The translations under genes were made by a program, and so were the position numbers. A stretch of DNA of 64,000 nucleotides, from positions 1,622,001-1,686,000 of the forward strand of contig NZ_ACJX03000001.1 in NCBI RefSeq assembly GCF_000160455.2, read 5' to 3'. This document shows, piece by piece, positions 46,806 through 53,223 of this stretch. Numbering within the stretch: the first letter of the stretch is position 1; each line of letters begins with the position of its first letter. The notes beneath the pieces are model-generated. The model ran no database searches and was not told where the DNA came from. It saw only the letters and a program-made list of their open reading frames with translations. This DNA is from Acetomicrobium hydrogeniformans ATCC BAA-1850. Its GTDB lineage: Bacteria > Synergistota > Synergistia > Synergistales > Acetomicrobiaceae.

Positions 46806-46834
46806 TTGCAAAAACCACGAGCCCCCAATATAAT
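46806..46834 (+). promoter_or_regulatory. Promoter of tRNA-Gly
   Basis: TTGCAA (46806-46811), 17-base spacer, TATAAT (46829-46834). Transcription would start near 46841, six bases before the tRNA, a typical tRNA promoter layout. Confidence 0.75.
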
Positions 46835-46846
46835 TTAAAAGGCAAT

Positions 46847-46922
46847 GCGGACATAGCTCAGCTGGTAGAGCATCGGCTTCCCAAGCCGAGGGTCGCGGGT
46901 TCGAATCCCGTTGTCCGCTCCA
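46847..46922 (+). tRNA. tRNA-Gly(CCC), CCA encoded; carries attachment-site repeat
   Basis: Full cloverleaf: acceptor GCGGACA/TGTCCGC, anticodon loop TTCCCAA (CCC), T-arm GCGGG-TTCGAAT-CCCGT, discriminator T as usual for glycine tRNAs, encoded CCA. Its last 25 bases are repeated exactly at 51157-51181. Confidence 0.96.
46898..46922. repeat. 25-bp direct repeat, left copy (candidate attL core in tRNA-Gly)
   Basis: The 3' end of tRNA-Gly from the T-stem through CCA is identical to 51157-51181. A shared tRNA 3' end flanking integrase remnants is the classic footprint of tyrosine-recombinase integration. Confidence 0.75.
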
Positions 46923-46929
46923 AGTTTAG

Positions 46930-46966
46930 TTCCCGACTGGCTTCGTGCTGTGTCGGGAATTTTTTT
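46930..46966 (+). terminator. Rho-independent terminator after tRNA-Gly
   Basis: TTCCCGAC (46930-46937) pairs with GTCGGGAA (46952-46959), 14-base loop, then seven Ts. Confidence 0.9.
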
Positions 46967-47110
46967 GTGCCTATTTAGGAGCGTCGGCCTGGATTTTATA
47001 AGGCAGTGCTTTAAATGACTCCTAGAAATTCGCATCTTTCCGAAATGTAAGGTTTTCCCTCCCCTCGCTTTGTTTGGTATAGTATATTCCAGTTAGTTTA
47101 TATTCTATTT

Positions 47111-47142
47111 CTCAACGATATTCAAGCTCAACGATATTCAAG
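47111..47142 (+). repeat. Two tandem copies of a 16-bp unit next to the integrase relic
   Basis: CTCAACGATATTCAAG occurs at 47111-47126 and again at 47127-47142 without a gap. Position near the attL side suggests possible integrase arm-type sites, but this is inference. Confidence 0.7.
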
Positions 47143-47159
47143 TCCGGCGTTTATCTTTC

Positions 47160-47545
47160 ATGGGCGGCTTGCGTCTCCGGCAGTTGTGGCCAGTAAACAT
47201 GAAAAGCTGTTGTCCAGACGCCTTAGAAGGCCTCAAAAGAAGAAAAGACGAAGGGAAGCATCGTCTCGATCGAAGACGACGTCTTAAAACGGCTTCTGAA
47301 GCTATCAGGCAAAAGTATGTTCAAAGGCCTTACGACCTGCGACATGCCTTTGCCCTCTCTTACATGCGAAACAGCGGAGATACGCTTTTTGGCAGCGTAT
47401 TATGGGCCATACCGATCTTGCAATGACCAAACGTTATGTTGCCTACACGCTAGGCGACATAAAAGAACAACATGACCATGCCTCGCCTGTCAACAAGCTT
47501 GTGTCGGTGGGGAAGAGAGTGAAGCTGAGAATAAGGCAGGCTTGA
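47160..47545 (+). pseudogene. Tyrosine recombinase relic (C-terminal part, frameshifted)
   Basis: One frame encodes YDLRHAFALSYMRNSGDTLF (box II His/Arg region); after about 47390 the homology moves to another frame, which reads QRIMGHTDLAMTKRYVAYTL (second conserved His and the catalytic Tyr) and ends ASPVNKL... at 47545. An upstream stretch near 47270 also reads better in a different frame. At least one and probably two frameshifts, and no N-terminal half, so the gene is dead. Confidence 0.75.
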
Positions 47546-47947
47546 GCACAGAAACGGCGCAACGAACAGCCCTGGCGAGATAAAAACCTCACATCATAAT
47601 CGTCTAAGTCGTCTCACCTAAATATTGCATGCTCATATATAATAGTGATACATGATATCTTTATTCAGCCTTAACGGAGCAGTTTGAGTGTCAGACGGGC
47701 CAGGGTCATGGAAGGAAGAAGGAAAGCAATGCCGCTGCCAGGTACATCGGTTGGTGGAAGTGAAGTCATAGACGGTGAAAACGACAACATAACACAACAA
47801 GTAAAGGTCTGACCCTGCCTATTCTGCTACTTACTCCGTGTAATTTTTCAAATCGAGCGTGAAAGCATAAGCTTCAACTTCGCACCTTACTAACTGCTTA
47901 TGGTGGAATTCCTTTTGCCCTTGGATTCATACCTTTGTCGTTTACTT
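47546..47947. other. Stretch without recognisable genes
   Basis: No ORF with a ribosome site and family-like composition was seen. A CAGGGTCA near 47706 and a TGACCCTG near 47811 are inverted relative to each other, about 100 bases apart, which may be chance. The region is probably decayed element DNA. Confidence 0.5.
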
Positions 47948-49342
47948 TTAGTCAATGCAACCATCACAACTAAATAAGCGACGCTCAAATTCAAGTGTGT
48001 CCAAATTAATGTCGATAAAGTAACCATCATAACCGAGTAATTTGAGAAACAGTTGGTCTATAAGTCGAATGACTCGAAAATACTCACGTGTTTTGTCAGT
48101 GTTATTGGTCGATTGGAACTCAGCTTTATGTACAAGAGCATTGCGGGTATCTTTTACCTTTGGTAATTCGCCCTCAGGAATATTCAGCTTTAAGTCGCAC
48201 CGCAATCGTTTCAATAAATTCAAAAAAGAACGTCGATTTAGCTCCGATATTTTCGCTAGCATCTCATCAAGTTCGTTCTTTTTGATACCTTGAAATAGCC
48301 TTTGTATGTCCTCTTTAAGGTAGCTACGAAGCCTTTTTTCCTTCTTTTTGAAGTCACTTCTGATTTTGTCTAAGTTACGTTGAGAGGCGTAACGCCCGAT
48401 TAGGAAGTCAAGGAGCGATACAGCTCTTAGGGCTCTTGTTTCAAGATATGCCGTTTCTCGTTTAGCATCGAGATACAGCTCAATAGCAGTGTTAAGATTG
48501 TAGCTATCGCGTAGTTTAAGATATATTGGATAGACTTTTTCGACAAAAAGATTTGTGTCTTGGGGATTATTTGGGTCTATTAATGCAAGATGTGAAAATG
48601 GCCAAGTGACAGCATTTTTAACTATAATTCTACAGGCTTGCTCATCTTCTGTATATTCTTCAGCGCTTATCCAGTTTACTTTGGTGCCCCGAGCTAATGA
48701 TAATAGGCGACATAGTTCATTTATCTTGTTAATAACCTCATTCAGTTCTAAAGCCTCTGATGGTTTTGCAATGAGTTCACATGTAACCGAAATGCTTTTT
48801 TGCGCCCTGACTTTGAGGATCACATTGTCGTAATCAGGTATGGGATTTAGTATAGCTATTCCCCAGGGAGTATTAAGCTCAAGGGGATATCTTTTTACTT
48901 GCTTGCCATCTTGAATAACTATTTTTGGTAGACGATTCCCTTTGAACTCGAAATTAACCACGCTAAACTTATAATGTTGCCCTACTGTATGCTGATTTTC
49001 GTTGCATAGTTCTATTTCCTGAGCCACAAACATCATTGTAGTTAGCACCATTGAAGAAGTGCTATTAAAGTTATCACTTGGACTTAAAACAACAAGTTTC
49101 CCTCTGGTTTTGAAGTTAAGGCCATCGCTTGTTATGCCATAAATATATTCAACGTCTTCTTGATAAGGAGTATCAAAAAGAGCCTGCTCTATATTTATAT
49201 CGAATCTACACTTGATAAGGATTAGTCCTGTTTCTATTTGTTGGATACATGCGCTGCAGGGAAGCTCGTTACCATTAGTCAGTCTGAGTTTTCCATTACC
49301 ATGATATTTTCTTACAATCTTGCCATATTCATTAATATTCAT
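47948..49342 (-). CDS. HEPN-type protein, ApeA-like (possible anti-phage or abortive-infection factor)
   Basis: A 464-residue protein in two parts: a beta-rich N-terminal region (about 1-200) and a helical C-terminal region (about 265-455) that ends with DTRNALVHKAEF. Arg400 and His405 form an RX4H motif, the signature of HEPN ribonucleases. This domain order resembles ApeA-type defence proteins, but family membership is inference. ATG 49342 has no strong ribosome site, and base composition is more AT-rich than core genes, consistent with transfer. It lies inside the tRNA-flanked element. Confidence 0.6.
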   Translation of the reverse strand: MNINEYGKIVRKYHGNGKLRLTNGNELPCSACIQQIETGLILIKCRFDINIEQALFDTPYQEDVEYIYGITSDGLNFKTRGKLVVLSPSDNFNSTSSMVLTTMMFVAQEIELCNENQHTVGQHYKFSVVNFEFKGNRLPKIVIQDGKQVKRYPLELNTPWGIAILNPIPDYDNVILKVRAQKSISVTCELIAKPSEALELNEVINKINELCRLLSLARGTKVNWISAEEYTEDEQACRIIVKNAVTWPFSHLALIDPNNPQDTNLFVEKVYPIYLKLRDSYNLNTAIELYLDAKRETAYLETRALRAVSLLDFLIGRYASQRNLDKIRSDFKKKEKRLRSYLKEDIQRLFQGIKKNELDEMLAKISELNRRSFLNLLKRLRCDLKLNIPEGELPKVKDTRNALVHKAEFQSTNNTDKTREYFRVIRLIDQLFLKLLGYDGYFIDINLDTLEFERRLFSCDGCID

Positions 49343-49344
49343 AT

Positions 49345-49479
49345 TTACACCTTTTCTGCGTTTTCTGGAATTTCCGAAACTGCGGATGCGCCTCCAAACA
49401 CCGTTGATGCAGAAAGAACTGCGACCAAAAGCAACAGGAGCCAGACGCCTCCTGACATTAGCCTGTAAAAACGTTTCAT
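49345..49479 (-). pseudogene. Short signal-peptide ORF, likely truncated exported-protein gene
   Basis: A 44-codon ORF with an excellent AGGAGGT 9 bases upstream. It encodes a classic signal peptide (KRFYRLMSGGVWLLLLLVAV, then an AxA-like GGASA) followed by only a dozen residues. It ends three bases before the HEPN gene start on the same strand. Most likely the 5' stub of a secreted protein whose remainder was lost; a genuine short secreted peptide is possible. Confidence 0.5.
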
Positions 49480-49673
49480 AAAGTATCTACCTCCTGCACT
49501 TGCGATTTATGGAGATAAATTTGATTGACCCTCCAGGATCGAGCATGACATTGCCCCCTTAAATCTAATTATGTATGTGAATTATTGTAACGCATATGGA
49601 ATTAAATGCACGTTGGTAGGGTGGTGCCTAGAGATCCTACAAAAACTTGACGCGGTCCACCTAGAGCAAAAAT

Positions 49674-49701
49674 TTGACTATTATTAAAATTTTGTTATAA
49701 T
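49674..49701 (+). promoter_or_regulatory. Orphan sigma-70-like promoter
   Basis: TTGACT (49674-49679), 16-base spacer, TATAAT (49696-49701). Transcription would start near 49708 and run straight into the hairpin at 49712, with no gene downstream on this strand. Confidence 0.55.
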
Positions 49702-49711
49702 ATTGTCAAGT

Positions 49712-49754
49712 GATCAAGGACTGGAGGCTGCGTAGCGGACTCCAGTCCTTGATC
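49712..49754 (+). ncRNA. 15-bp perfect hairpin directly after the orphan promoter
   Basis: GATCAAGGACTGGAG (49712-49726) and CTCCAGTCCTTGATC (49740-49754) are perfect complements with a 13-base loop. The following TTTAACCTTT is a weak U-tract. It could be a very short RNA, a terminator for the neighbouring minus-strand relic, or a mobile-element end. Identity unknown. Confidence 0.35.
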
Positions 49755-49755
49755 T

Positions 49756-50084
49756 TTAACCTTTCGGCAGTAAAATCAACCCGTAACCTTCTATTTGACC
49801 AGTTTTGCTGTCCTTACGAAATTTAGTTTTTATGATTTTCCAGTCCTCGTGTGCCTTTTTCCTAATTGCCCACCGGCCAATAGGAGTTACGACAAGGTCA
49901 GCTATCTGAAGCCCAGCTTCATTGTCTTTCTTATCCACCAGTTTTAGTTCCCTATCAATACGAGAAAAGATTTGTCTCTTGGGCAGATAATAGGTGCCCT
50001 TTCTGCGAGGACAAAGACCGGATATGCAGGGTCCACGTTGCGTAAATTGGTATCCCCAGATTCATCCAAAAACAAAATTTTCAT
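49756..50084 (-). pseudogene. DUF3800 protein relic with internal deletion
   Basis: On the minus strand, ATG 50084 (GGAAGGA upstream) begins KILFLDESGDTNLRNVDPAY, the DUF3800 N-terminus with its DESGD motif, but this frame stops early. A second frame (from about 49938) carries the C-terminal DUF3800 motif NEAGLQIADLVVTPIGRWA. The central part is missing, so the gene is broken. Confidence 0.7.
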
Positions 50085-50597
50085 ATAACAGCATCCTTCC
50101 AGCGAAGACAAGATCGACGACATGAAAAGATGAACCTGTCCTGTCCCTTCCTTCGCCCGAATAGATGAAAAAGGCGCTTGAAGAGCTCACAGAACACCTG
50201 TTTTGTCGCTGTCATGGTAGAAGATTAACTTTTTTAAGTTTATCAAAGAGCCCATCAAACCATAAAGGCGTATTTTAGTACGCTTTTATGGTGCGTTGTC
50301 TCAAATGACAGATTCTTGCAGCTTAACAAGACCTAGGTTCCAAAGGGCATCTTTTAGGTTTTGACCTTGTCCGTTCCAAAAACCTTGACCAAACGACCCA
50401 TAGCTTCCGAGCTCTTCTGGTATGGCTTTAAGTATATCGTTAGGCTAAGTTCGCCCAGATAGGCAGAACGTGCCATCCTATAAGCTTTTTCTAGGTTAGA
50501 TTGACAGCAATGACTAGACAAACGATAGTCTGCAACCTTGTGCTTTGATGTGCGTTGCATTGCTGATTTGCCGTTGCTTTCTGCCTGTTGTCCATCC
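50085..50597. other. Gene-poor stretch with one hairpin and one doubtful ORF
   Basis: A 14-base-pair stem (50261-50274 with 50281-50294, loop TTTTAG, one G-T pair) stands out and may be a terminator. A minus-strand 68-codon frame at 50354-50560 (SNLEKAYRMARSAYLGELSL...) has no recognisable family. Nothing else is supported. Confidence 0.5.
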
Positions 50598-50969
50598 TCA
50601 CCTCACCCTCTTATTTTTCCCTATCAATCTTTTTACCGGTGATGCCTTTTCCTGCGCCTCGCGGATGTCGGCTTCGACCAGCGCTATGTAGTGCTTCGTT
50701 GTCTCTAAGTTTGAGTGTCCCATGATGGCCTGCAGTGCAAAGGGGTTCATGCCGTTTCTAAGGAAATACAGCGCCGCGTCGTGGCGCAGGTCGTAGGGAG
50801 AAAGGCGCTTAAGTCCGAGCTTGGGTGCGTAGTTTTTCTGCAATCTCTGCCTCCAGCCGGAAACAGTTAACCTGTTTCCCTCGTAGTGGGCAAAAATTAG
50901 CTTCGTGTCCCACTCCCTCGGCCTTCCTGAAGAGGGTAAACGCCTCGAGTGCCTACTCCAATGAGGCAA
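50598..50969 (-). pseudogene. Tyrosine recombinase relic (C-terminal catalytic part only)
   Basis: This frame holds LSPYDLRHDAALYFLRNGMN (box II RHxxR-like) and AIMGHSNLETTKHYIALVEA (His and catalytic Tyr), then EKASPVKRLIGK. The box I arginine and the whole N-terminal half are missing, and the first residues of the frame are not integrase-like. It is related to the relic at 47160 (both end ASPV-K/N-L) but lies on the other strand. Confidence 0.75.
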
Positions 50970-51104
50970 ATTTCTCCTGGAATAAAACCACGTGGCCTGT
51001 TTTGTTCACAACTTCGCCTTGCGGTGTCAGGAAAAGCGCAAATTTAGGAGCTTCGGCCTCGGTCAATATTTTGCTAAAATTGAGCTGAATTTGTCAGTAT
51101 TTAT

Positions 51105-51181
51105 GTGGATATAACTCAGCTGGATAGAGCGACGGCCTCCTAAGCCGTAGGTCGCCGGTTCGAATCCCGTTGTCCGCTCCA
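51105..51181 (+). tRNA. tRNA-Arg(CCT)-like gene with a tRNA-Gly 3' end, probably chimeric
   Basis: Anticodon stem ACGGC/GCCGT with loop CTCCTAA gives CCT (Arg). However the final 25 bases equal those of tRNA-Gly, including the glycine-type discriminator T. As a result the T-stem has a C-C mismatch, the D-stem an A-C mismatch, and the acceptor (GTGGATA with TGTCCGC) two G-T pairs. It is probably a recombinant, perhaps non-functional, tRNA created by integration. Confidence 0.75.
51157..51181. repeat. 25-bp direct repeat, right copy (candidate attR core)
   Basis: Identical to 46898-46922. It forms the 3' part of the tRNA-Arg-like gene and marks the right end of the putative integrative element. 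Confidence 0.75.
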
Positions 51182-52054: not shown

Positions 52055-52200
52055 ACATACTCCCACGAATAAATTTGTGGGATTCTGGTTCATCGAAGGA
52101 TGCCCGCCGAAGCAGGTTTTACTCCTTCTCCCCCAAGGGTTGATGCCCCAACCCTGAGAATGTTTATGGCCGCATTGACATCCCGATCATGCACTGCACC
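52040..52200 (-). ncRNA. Candidate omegaRNA (reRNA) region of the tnpB element
   Basis: In IS200/IS605 elements the TnpB guide RNA covers the 3' end of tnpB and the right end, with the guide reading into flanking DNA. This interval is in that position and holds the right-end hairpin. Assigned by position only; the guide would match the DUF3798 relic sequence below about 52055. Confidence 0.3.
52062..52081. repeat. Right-end subterminal hairpin of the IS
   Basis: CCCAC and GTGGG pair around a 10-base AT-rich loop. Its 3'-arm sequence recurs at the left end, as expected for the hairpins bound by the Y1 transposase. Confidence 0.6.
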
Positions 52201-53223
52201 GCATATAGGACAGGCCCAACTTCTTACATCGAGAGGCAATTCTTCCAGCACATACCCACACTTCGAACATGTCTTGCTGGAAGGATAAAACCGCGGAATT
52301 TCTATTGCCATTGTCCCAACCTTAGTACACTGGTGCTTTAAGATGTTTACAAACTGGCCGTGTCCGAGATCGGATATCTTTCTTCCCCATATCTTCTGCA
52401 TCGCCTTAATATTTAAGTCTTCAATGCAGATTATGGCATATTCTTCAGCCAGTTCTTTAGCCAACTTGAAGTGATAGTCCATGCGACGGTTTGCTATCTT
52501 CTTGTAGGCCTTTGCAAGAATTATTAATGCTCTTTTGCGATTGTTAGATCCTTTCTTTTTGCGGGAAAGGATTCTGTGCAGTTTCCGTATTTCTTTTATA
52601 CTTTGTTTGAAGAATAAGGGAGATTCGATAATTTTTCCATCTGACGTTGTGAGAAACTGTTTCAGGCCGAAGTCCAACCCGACGCTTTTACCCGATCTTG
52701 GTTCGACAGCGGTCTCTTCAGTTTCACACGTCAGATGAATGTATATATCTCCCAGAAAGTCGCGTTTAACTGTCAAGGTCTTAATTTTTCCTTCAATATT
52801 GCGGGACTTGGAGTATTTGTATACGTGGCCTATAATTATAATCTTATTCCCTTCAAGCAGTTTGTATCCGGTCTGCTTCAAAGTGAAAGATTTGTACTTC
52901 TTGATCTTCTTGAAGGAAGGCGGCGCTGTTTTGATACCGCGCTTTTGGTTTTTGAAAAAAAGCTTGTAGTTCCTTTCAATCCGCTGGGCAATATCCTGGA
53001 TCGCCTGGGAACCTAACTGATTCCAGAAAACAAACATTCGGCGTTTCTTTAATTTCGTCATATGTTGCATCAGTTTGTTGACGTTCAAATGTTTTCCGTA
53101 CAGGCGGTAGTATCTCTTATGCAGGGCTATAAGGTGGTTATATATACGCCCAGCAACGTCTATCAATCTATGAAGTTTTTTGTTCTTCTTTGAGCGGTAG
53201 AGCTTGAAACGGTAGGTTTTCAT
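52090..53223 (-). CDS. tnpB: TnpB, RNA-guided nuclease of IS200/IS605
   Basis: A 377-residue TnpB. The RuvC-like active site is complete: Asp184 (VGLDFGLKQF), Glu268 (ICIEDLNIKAM) and Asp348 (HDRDVNAAINI). The zinc finger has CSKCG (319, 322) and CPICG (338, 341). TnpB proteins cut DNA next to a target-adjacent motif under omegaRNA guidance and help retain the IS. ATG overlaps the tnpA stop (ATGA). No truncation seen, so it may be active. Confidence 0.93.
   Translation of the reverse strand: MKTYRFKLYRSKKNKKLHRLIDVAGRIYNHLIALHKRYYRLYGKHLNVNKLMQHMTKLKKRRMFVFWNQLGSQAIQDIAQRIERNYKLFFKNQKRGIKTAPPSFKKIKKYKSFTLKQTGYKLLEGNKIIIIGHVYKYSKSRNIEGKIKTLTVKRDFLGDIYIHLTCETEETAVEPRSGKSVGLDFGLKQFLTTSDGKIIESPLFFKQSIKEIRKLHRILSRKKKGSNNRKRALIILAKAYKKIANRRMDYHFKLAKELAEEYAIICIEDLNIKAMQKIWGRKISDLGHGQFVNILKHQCTKVGTMAIEIPRFYPSSKTCSKCGYVLEELPLDVRSWACPICGAVHDRDVNAAINILRVGASTLGGEGVKPASAGILR

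Follow-up and report, generated by a model that had tools for sequence, protein, structure and literature searches.

A probable decayed satellite-like element in Acetomicrobium between an intact tRNA-Gly(CCC) and a mosaic tRNA copy with an arginine core

The 64,000-nucleotide stretch of Acetomicrobium DNA analysed here (the window) quite probably holds the decayed remains of a satellite-like element with a tyrosine integrase, which would have left a rebuilt tRNA-Gly(CCC) at its left end and a displaced scar with a tRNA-Arg core at its right end. We propose that the element belongs to a phage-satellite-like family present in Acetomicrobium and other Synergistales, the attP of which would hold a long stretch of tRNA sequence. 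At insertion, the crossover made by the integrase would fall inside the host tRNA; with much of the tRNA repeated in attP, one complete tRNA would be rebuilt at one end, and the other end would keep a displaced, slowly degrading copy. The left tRNA-Gly(CCC) would then be the rebuilt gene and would owe its 3' end and terminator to the element, and the right copy would retain the 3' end of the host tRNA-Gly. The Arg(CCT) core would most likely be a relic of an earlier residence of the element or its donor at tRNA-Arg(CCT), a plausible history given that members of the family sit at tRNA-Arg(CCT) in sister genomes.

The host genome (G000; Synergistales, 2.12 Mb, 99.88% complete) carries the two tRNAs called by ARAGORN 4.2 kb apart, with two broken integrases, an ORF of HEPN type and other relics in the interval (Table 1). 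The left tRNA has the same sequence as Gly(CCC) in G005 and G014, where no element lies behind it, and a promoter-like TTGCAA-17-TATAAT lies upstream of it (46806-46834). Sequence like the element terminus behind this gene is found in relatives behind Lys, Arg, Trp, Phe and Gly(TCC) tRNAs, and was not found behind the Gly(CCC) of G005 and G014. Together with the position of the right copy, which is that of the displaced copies in relatives, these observations uphold the integration at tRNA-Gly proposed in a preliminary description of the locus. A 17-bp motif marks both ends of the element, 51 bp past the left tRNA and 45 bp ahead of the right one, with two copies found in the window against 0.05 expected. 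A sequence of about 37 bp at 49621-49658, possibly a small dispersed repeat, has copies of about 88-92% identity at several other positions in G000 and in G002-G004. Just outside the right flank lies an intact-looking IS200/IS605-type TnpB-like ORF (52090-53223, read by eye).

Table 1. Features of the element remnant and its flanking tRNAs (window coordinates)
Feature	Position	Strand	Evidence
tRNA-Gly(CCC), complete, probably functional, left end (attL side)	46847..46922	+	ARAGORN; Rfam 74.1 bits
Element left terminus: spacer and terminator hairpin TTCCCGAC...GTCGGGAATTTTTTT	46923..46966	+	sequence
Left end motif TTTAGGAGCGTCGGCCT, candidate integrase accessory or arm site	46974..46990	+	motif search; tRNA-adjacent in relatives
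Left integrase relic, C-terminal pieces only, frameshifted	47328..47524	+	tblastn with family integrases
464-aa open ORF, cargo	47948..49342	-	weak ApeA N-terminal and HEPN matches
Split DUF3800-like pseudogene, two ORFs	49756..50123	-	Pfam on C-terminal ORF; N-terminal ORF by eye
Right integrase, internally deleted	50601..51066	-	tblastn, blastn
Right end motif TTTAGGAGCTTCGGCCT	51043..51059	+	motif search of window
Mosaic tRNA copy, attR side, probable pseudo-tRNA	51105..51181	+	ARAGORN, Rfam, position-wise comparison

Both integrases noted earlier are indeed broken. The stretch of the left relic is also present in the left end of the Lys-site elements. The right integrase retains about 50 N-terminal amino acids (50914-51066) and 110 C-terminal amino acids (50601-50930) in different frames, with the middle deleted; the fragment matches Pfam Phage_integrase (E 2.1e-12), is 78% identical over the C-terminus to the intact integrase of G005 and shares 88% nucleotide identity with the integrase of the Lys-type element of G004. 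The HEPN protein reported before corresponds to the 464-aa ORF, with ApeA N-terminal and HEPN matches (E 2.6e-4 and 2.6e-3) that both lie under the Pfam gathering cut-offs and a PADLOC match to Cas13-ApeA (E 1e-3); it is possibly a defence gene. The ORF is still open while the genes around it are broken, and it could still work in defence. In the DUF3800-like pseudogene the C-terminal ORF matches Pfam at E 0.0075, under the cut-off, and the N-terminal ORF reads MKILFLDESGDTN. Beyond the integrase relics, no satellite genes were found in the window remnant.

The longest run common to the two flanking tRNAs is, as first described, their exact 25-bp 3' end, GGTTCGAATCCCGTTGTCCGCTCCA. An intact tRNA-Arg(CCT), which had been proposed as a check, is present elsewhere in the genome (G000:C1:1851231-1851307), and within this 25-nt stretch its agreement with Gly(CCC) is limited to GGTTCGA, CCA and a few short runs, so that the identity between the flanking tRNAs exceeds the tRNA background. 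Against this intact Arg(CCT), nt 18-58 of the right copy match at 41 of 41 positions, and nt 52-76 match Gly(CCC) at 25 of 25. The first 17 nucleotides are closest to Gly(CCC) as well (14/17, the three differences all transitions), with Arg differing at 7 sites. The description of this tRNA as an arginine 5' half joined to a glycine 3' half thus stands for the core and the 3' end and fails for nt 1-17. Gly(TCC), the next best source of the core, was rejected for its four mismatches in nt 18-58 against none for Arg(CCT).

The discriminator of the right copy is T, as in Gly, where real Arg has G. Two non-standard pairs, one in the D stem (A10-C25) and one in the T stem (C-C), bear out the stem mismatches that had been noted. 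Positions 2 and 6 of the acceptor form T-G wobbles, and the anticodon stem pairs perfectly. In the T stem, the C of Arg stands opposite the C of Gly and so marks a joining inside GGTTCGA. The Rfam score of the copy is 49.5 bits, compared with the 74.1 bits of the left tRNA and 74 of normal copies, and no promoter-like site was found upstream on the + strand. Owing to the absent promoter-like site, the stem mismatches and the low score, we read the right copy as probably a non-functional scar, or pseudo-tRNA. That it should instead be a functional Arg(CCT) cargo reading AGG for the element seems improbable: it retains A20, C35 and U36, identity elements for arginyl-synthetase, along with the perfect anticodon stem, but the discriminator and the same defects count against it, and the host already has intact Arg(CCT) and Arg(TCT).

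Could the mosaic be a product of assembly, a false join between Gly and Arg tRNA reads at a collapsed repeat? The same place is an N gap in the draft genome G002. However, the chimera has bases found in neither tRNA (T2, A10), a scan allowing up to three mismatches found its nt 2-25 nowhere else in the 61 genomes, and it sits within a 2.1-Mb contig, which makes such an artefact very unlikely indeed. The chimera was found neither in 60 relatives nor in IMG/VR. The same tRNA-Arg in an element-free relative, which would have pointed to an ancestral 3' identity, was accordingly not encountered.

The end motif ties the window element to a wider family. Among 61 genomes of the order, the motif scan returned 17 copies, in genus g1 and its sister genus g2, and 15 of them adjoin a tRNA or a tRNA remnant, with Gly(CCC), Gly(TCC), Arg(CCT), Trp, Lys(TTT) and Phe represented. 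A further left end lies behind Arg(ACG), and a family integrase adjoins a His tRNA. By these sequence associations, at least eight tRNA species serve the family as insertion targets, and an insertion leaves a sound tRNA paired with a degraded copy, in a layout that runs from the tRNA through terminator, motif, element, inward-reading integrase, motif and arm to the tRNA copy. Integrase relatives occur in 18 of the 61 genomes. For integrases at least 38% identical to the query, the tRNA on the N-terminal side faces with its 5' end 13 times and with its 3' end once; for those at most 35% identical, the counts are zero and five. G001 shows (L037 920-1216) a Gly(CCC), terminator, single motif, right arm and second Gly(CCC) copy in succession, a remnant in which everything between the two motifs has been lost. 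In a relative in G035, the 3' end of a protein gene apparently takes the place of the tRNA, with a 111-bp direct repeat of 99% identity (L128 3179-3289 and 19307-19417, oriented).

An intact member in G005 occupies 9.1 kb between two Gly(TCC) copies, and the corresponding site in G014 is empty. Its cargo (L085 8517-11763) includes a complete His-Xaa-Ser radical-SAM peptide system, HxsA, B, C and D. Another relative, L096, encodes an integrase, a primase-polymerase, a D5-type helicase, small-terminase-like proteins and a regulator, and no capsid or large terminase was recognised among the ORFs searched; G002:C9 has ORFs similar to this set. Integrase, primase-polymerase, helicase and small terminase form the gene set of phage satellites. 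The family therefore appears phage-satellite-like, and for the window element the term satellite would follow from its relatives. The 17-mer occurs in 21 IMG/VR contigs, about the number that we estimate for chance; L096, known from its integrase, was the only one examined. The ends of L096 overlap by 81 bp and the contig may be a circle, but we dropped the overlap as proof of excision because the same picture would arise from an integrated copy that has long repeats. The other left ends of G005 and the Trp left end of G000 show neither integrase nor right end in the stretch examined, except for a weak integrase match in C127, and are treated as fossils. No description of the family was found in the literature consulted, mostly papers open without subscription, and it is apparently undescribed so far.

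Within this family, the left 600 bp of the window element are 86% identical to a tRNA-Lys(TTT) element of G002 and 83% identical to a G004 element that adjoins a decayed Lys tRNA; in G000 itself, no element end is present at Lys(TTT). Since the window element lies at Gly(CCC) and its closest relatives at tRNA-Lys(TTT), the same subfamily sits at different tRNAs and, as far as these identities indicate, has changed target. A change from Arg to Gly is made concrete by the members resident at Arg(CCT) in G002, G001, G014 and G005 and on one IMG/VR contig. The preliminary description had placed attP in or near a tRNA-Arg gene. The Arg(CCT) ancestry of the core and the sister elements at Arg(CCT) agree with it, but a single crossover between an Arg attP and Gly fails, since it predicts a left copy that ends in Arg sequence and a right copy that is Arg over nt 1-17. 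Neither is seen, and the left tRNA is Gly throughout, its last base included. Sites with and without an element can be compared at Gly(TCC) (G014 and G005) and at Arg(CCT) (G000 and G002). Gly(CCC) without an element is seen in G005 and G014, but ahead of a different flank from that of the window, and the same Gly(CCC) locus, empty and in the same downstream context, was not found among relatives. In G002, a genome of the same genus with flanks 96-97% identical (right flank 96%), another remnant sits at Gly(CCC).

Where in the tRNA does the integrase act? Intact and degraded copies pair at Rfam scores of 76.1/62.4, 72.8/58.2, 63.8/55.8, 70.5/36.7 and 74.1/36.3 bits in relatives and 74.1/49.5 in the window. 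At G005 Gly(TCC), G004 Trp, G051 Ser and in the window, it is the right copy that is degraded, next to a sound left tRNA. In G042, G010 and at Arg(CCT) in G002 the reverse holds: the left copy is truncated at nt 48-53 and the sound tRNA lies on the right, with the promoter and 5' part repeated over 133, 123 and about 105 bp, respectively. If one position holds for all members, the crossover would be bracketed between nt 21 and 48, in the anticodon arm, which does not coincide with the 3' switch of the mosaic at nt 52-58. The junctions obtained from the two comparisons of empty and filled sites fall in the tRNA or its promoter. A crossover at the 17-bp motif was ruled out, the empty Gly(TCC) site of G014 and Arg(CCT) site of G000 being without it.

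Two readings of how the Arg sequence entered the mosaic are both nested within the main explanation and bear on this origin alone. In the first, which we hold at somewhat under an even chance, the element was serially retargeted: its incoming attP would already have been mosaic, with a 5' arm and Arg core acquired during a stay at Arg(CCT) and a Gly 3' end from a stay at Gly(CCC), and it would have inserted by a crossover within the common 25 bp. The presence of one subfamily at both Lys(TTT) and Gly(CCC) fits such a history, as do the elements with a complete Arg(CCT) and left end in G014 and G005. The right end of G000 is unlike that of G002 at the same site, which argues that it came as a unit, and the right copies at Trp and Ser are likewise diverged in nt 1-17/20 and then follow the exact tRNA body. 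Against this stand the requirement for an attP made up of pieces from two tRNAs, of which the 60-61 genomes and IMG/VR yielded no example, and a direct repeat of only 25 bp, compared with 71-84 bp in G005, Trp and Ser. The second reading, a serious contender that we nonetheless doubt, starts from a plain Gly displaced copy, nt 18-58 of which were later replaced from Arg(CCT) by gene conversion or template switching. Displaced copies at Gly(CCC) are Gly-like in G002 and G001, the Gly affinity of both ends of the right copy is in keeping with it, and the C-C mismatch is the scar expected of an overwrite. Yet on inspection Gly(CCC) and Arg(CCT) have common runs of just about 6-8 bp, poor substrates for homologous recombination, and overwriting sits badly with the unlikeness of the window right arm to that of G002. 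We slightly favour an attP that was already mosaic over later overwriting.

A broader conjecture, and a rather unlikely one, is that these Synergistales satellites swap the tRNA body in their attachment site when they move, with conserved tRNA segments as crossover points, the window being a fossil of one such event. If so, one integrase clade could hop between tRNA genes of different identity, the promoters and terminators of elements would be passed to host tRNA genes, and hybrid tRNAs would sometimes be made. 

In G004, where no element was seen at Arg(CCT), the promoter region of this gene (L181/L086) closely matches the right arm of L096; by this match, an element promoter seems to have stayed behind in the host, suggesting a lasting change to host tRNA transcription. 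Tyrosine integrases usually stay with one target gene, and a close-knit family at Gly, Arg, Lys, Trp, Phe and His tRNAs, with both polarities of restoration, offers natural steps for studying the change of target. The family matters more than the single scar in the window. The Arg(CCT) call also carries a warning for annotation: a near-complete second tRNA can be a displaced attachment site and not a tRNA gene.

How does the family compare with known systems? A search of the literature on hybrid or chimeric tRNA genes at islands and on elements of Synergistetes or Acetomicrobium yielded nothing relevant. The window interval has the marks of a tRNA-targeting island: as in Islander islands (PMC4383910), an integrase, here of the tyrosine type, lies between an intact tRNA at one end and a co-oriented displaced copy at the other, but the displaced copies of the family are nearly full-length and that of the window is mosaic. 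Islander lists 3760 islands with 3' fragments and 159 with 5' fragments (3919 in total) and discards fragments inside a called full-length tRNA (PMC4383910), so that tRNA pairs like that of the window could be missed. Archaeal pTN3-like integrases restore the 5' half of the tRNA (PMC8371274), and the relatives at Arg(CCT) in G002, Gly(TCC) in G042 and Val in G010 resemble them in rebuilding the right tRNA with promoter and 5' part repeated; the window element, in contrast, is 3'-restoring. Both kinds of member have integrases 75-78% identical to one query, and we found no mention in PMC8371274 or PMC4383910 of both kinds among integrases so close. L096 resembles phage-inducible chromosomal islands in its gene content; the family has no known helper, and the window remnant has none of these genes beyond its integrase relics. 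Tycheposons, as summarised in PMC10872708, are similar by description in their tyrosine recombinase, several tRNA targets and varied cargo. A parallel to the mosaic is the insertion of SSVK1 into a tRNA-Glu, from which a tRNA-Asp gene resulted (Wiedenheft 2004, as cited in PMC8371274): there too, by that account, a mismatch between attP and target at integration turned one tRNA into another, although SSVK1 is an archaeal virus and the product in the window is a mosaic with mismatched stems.
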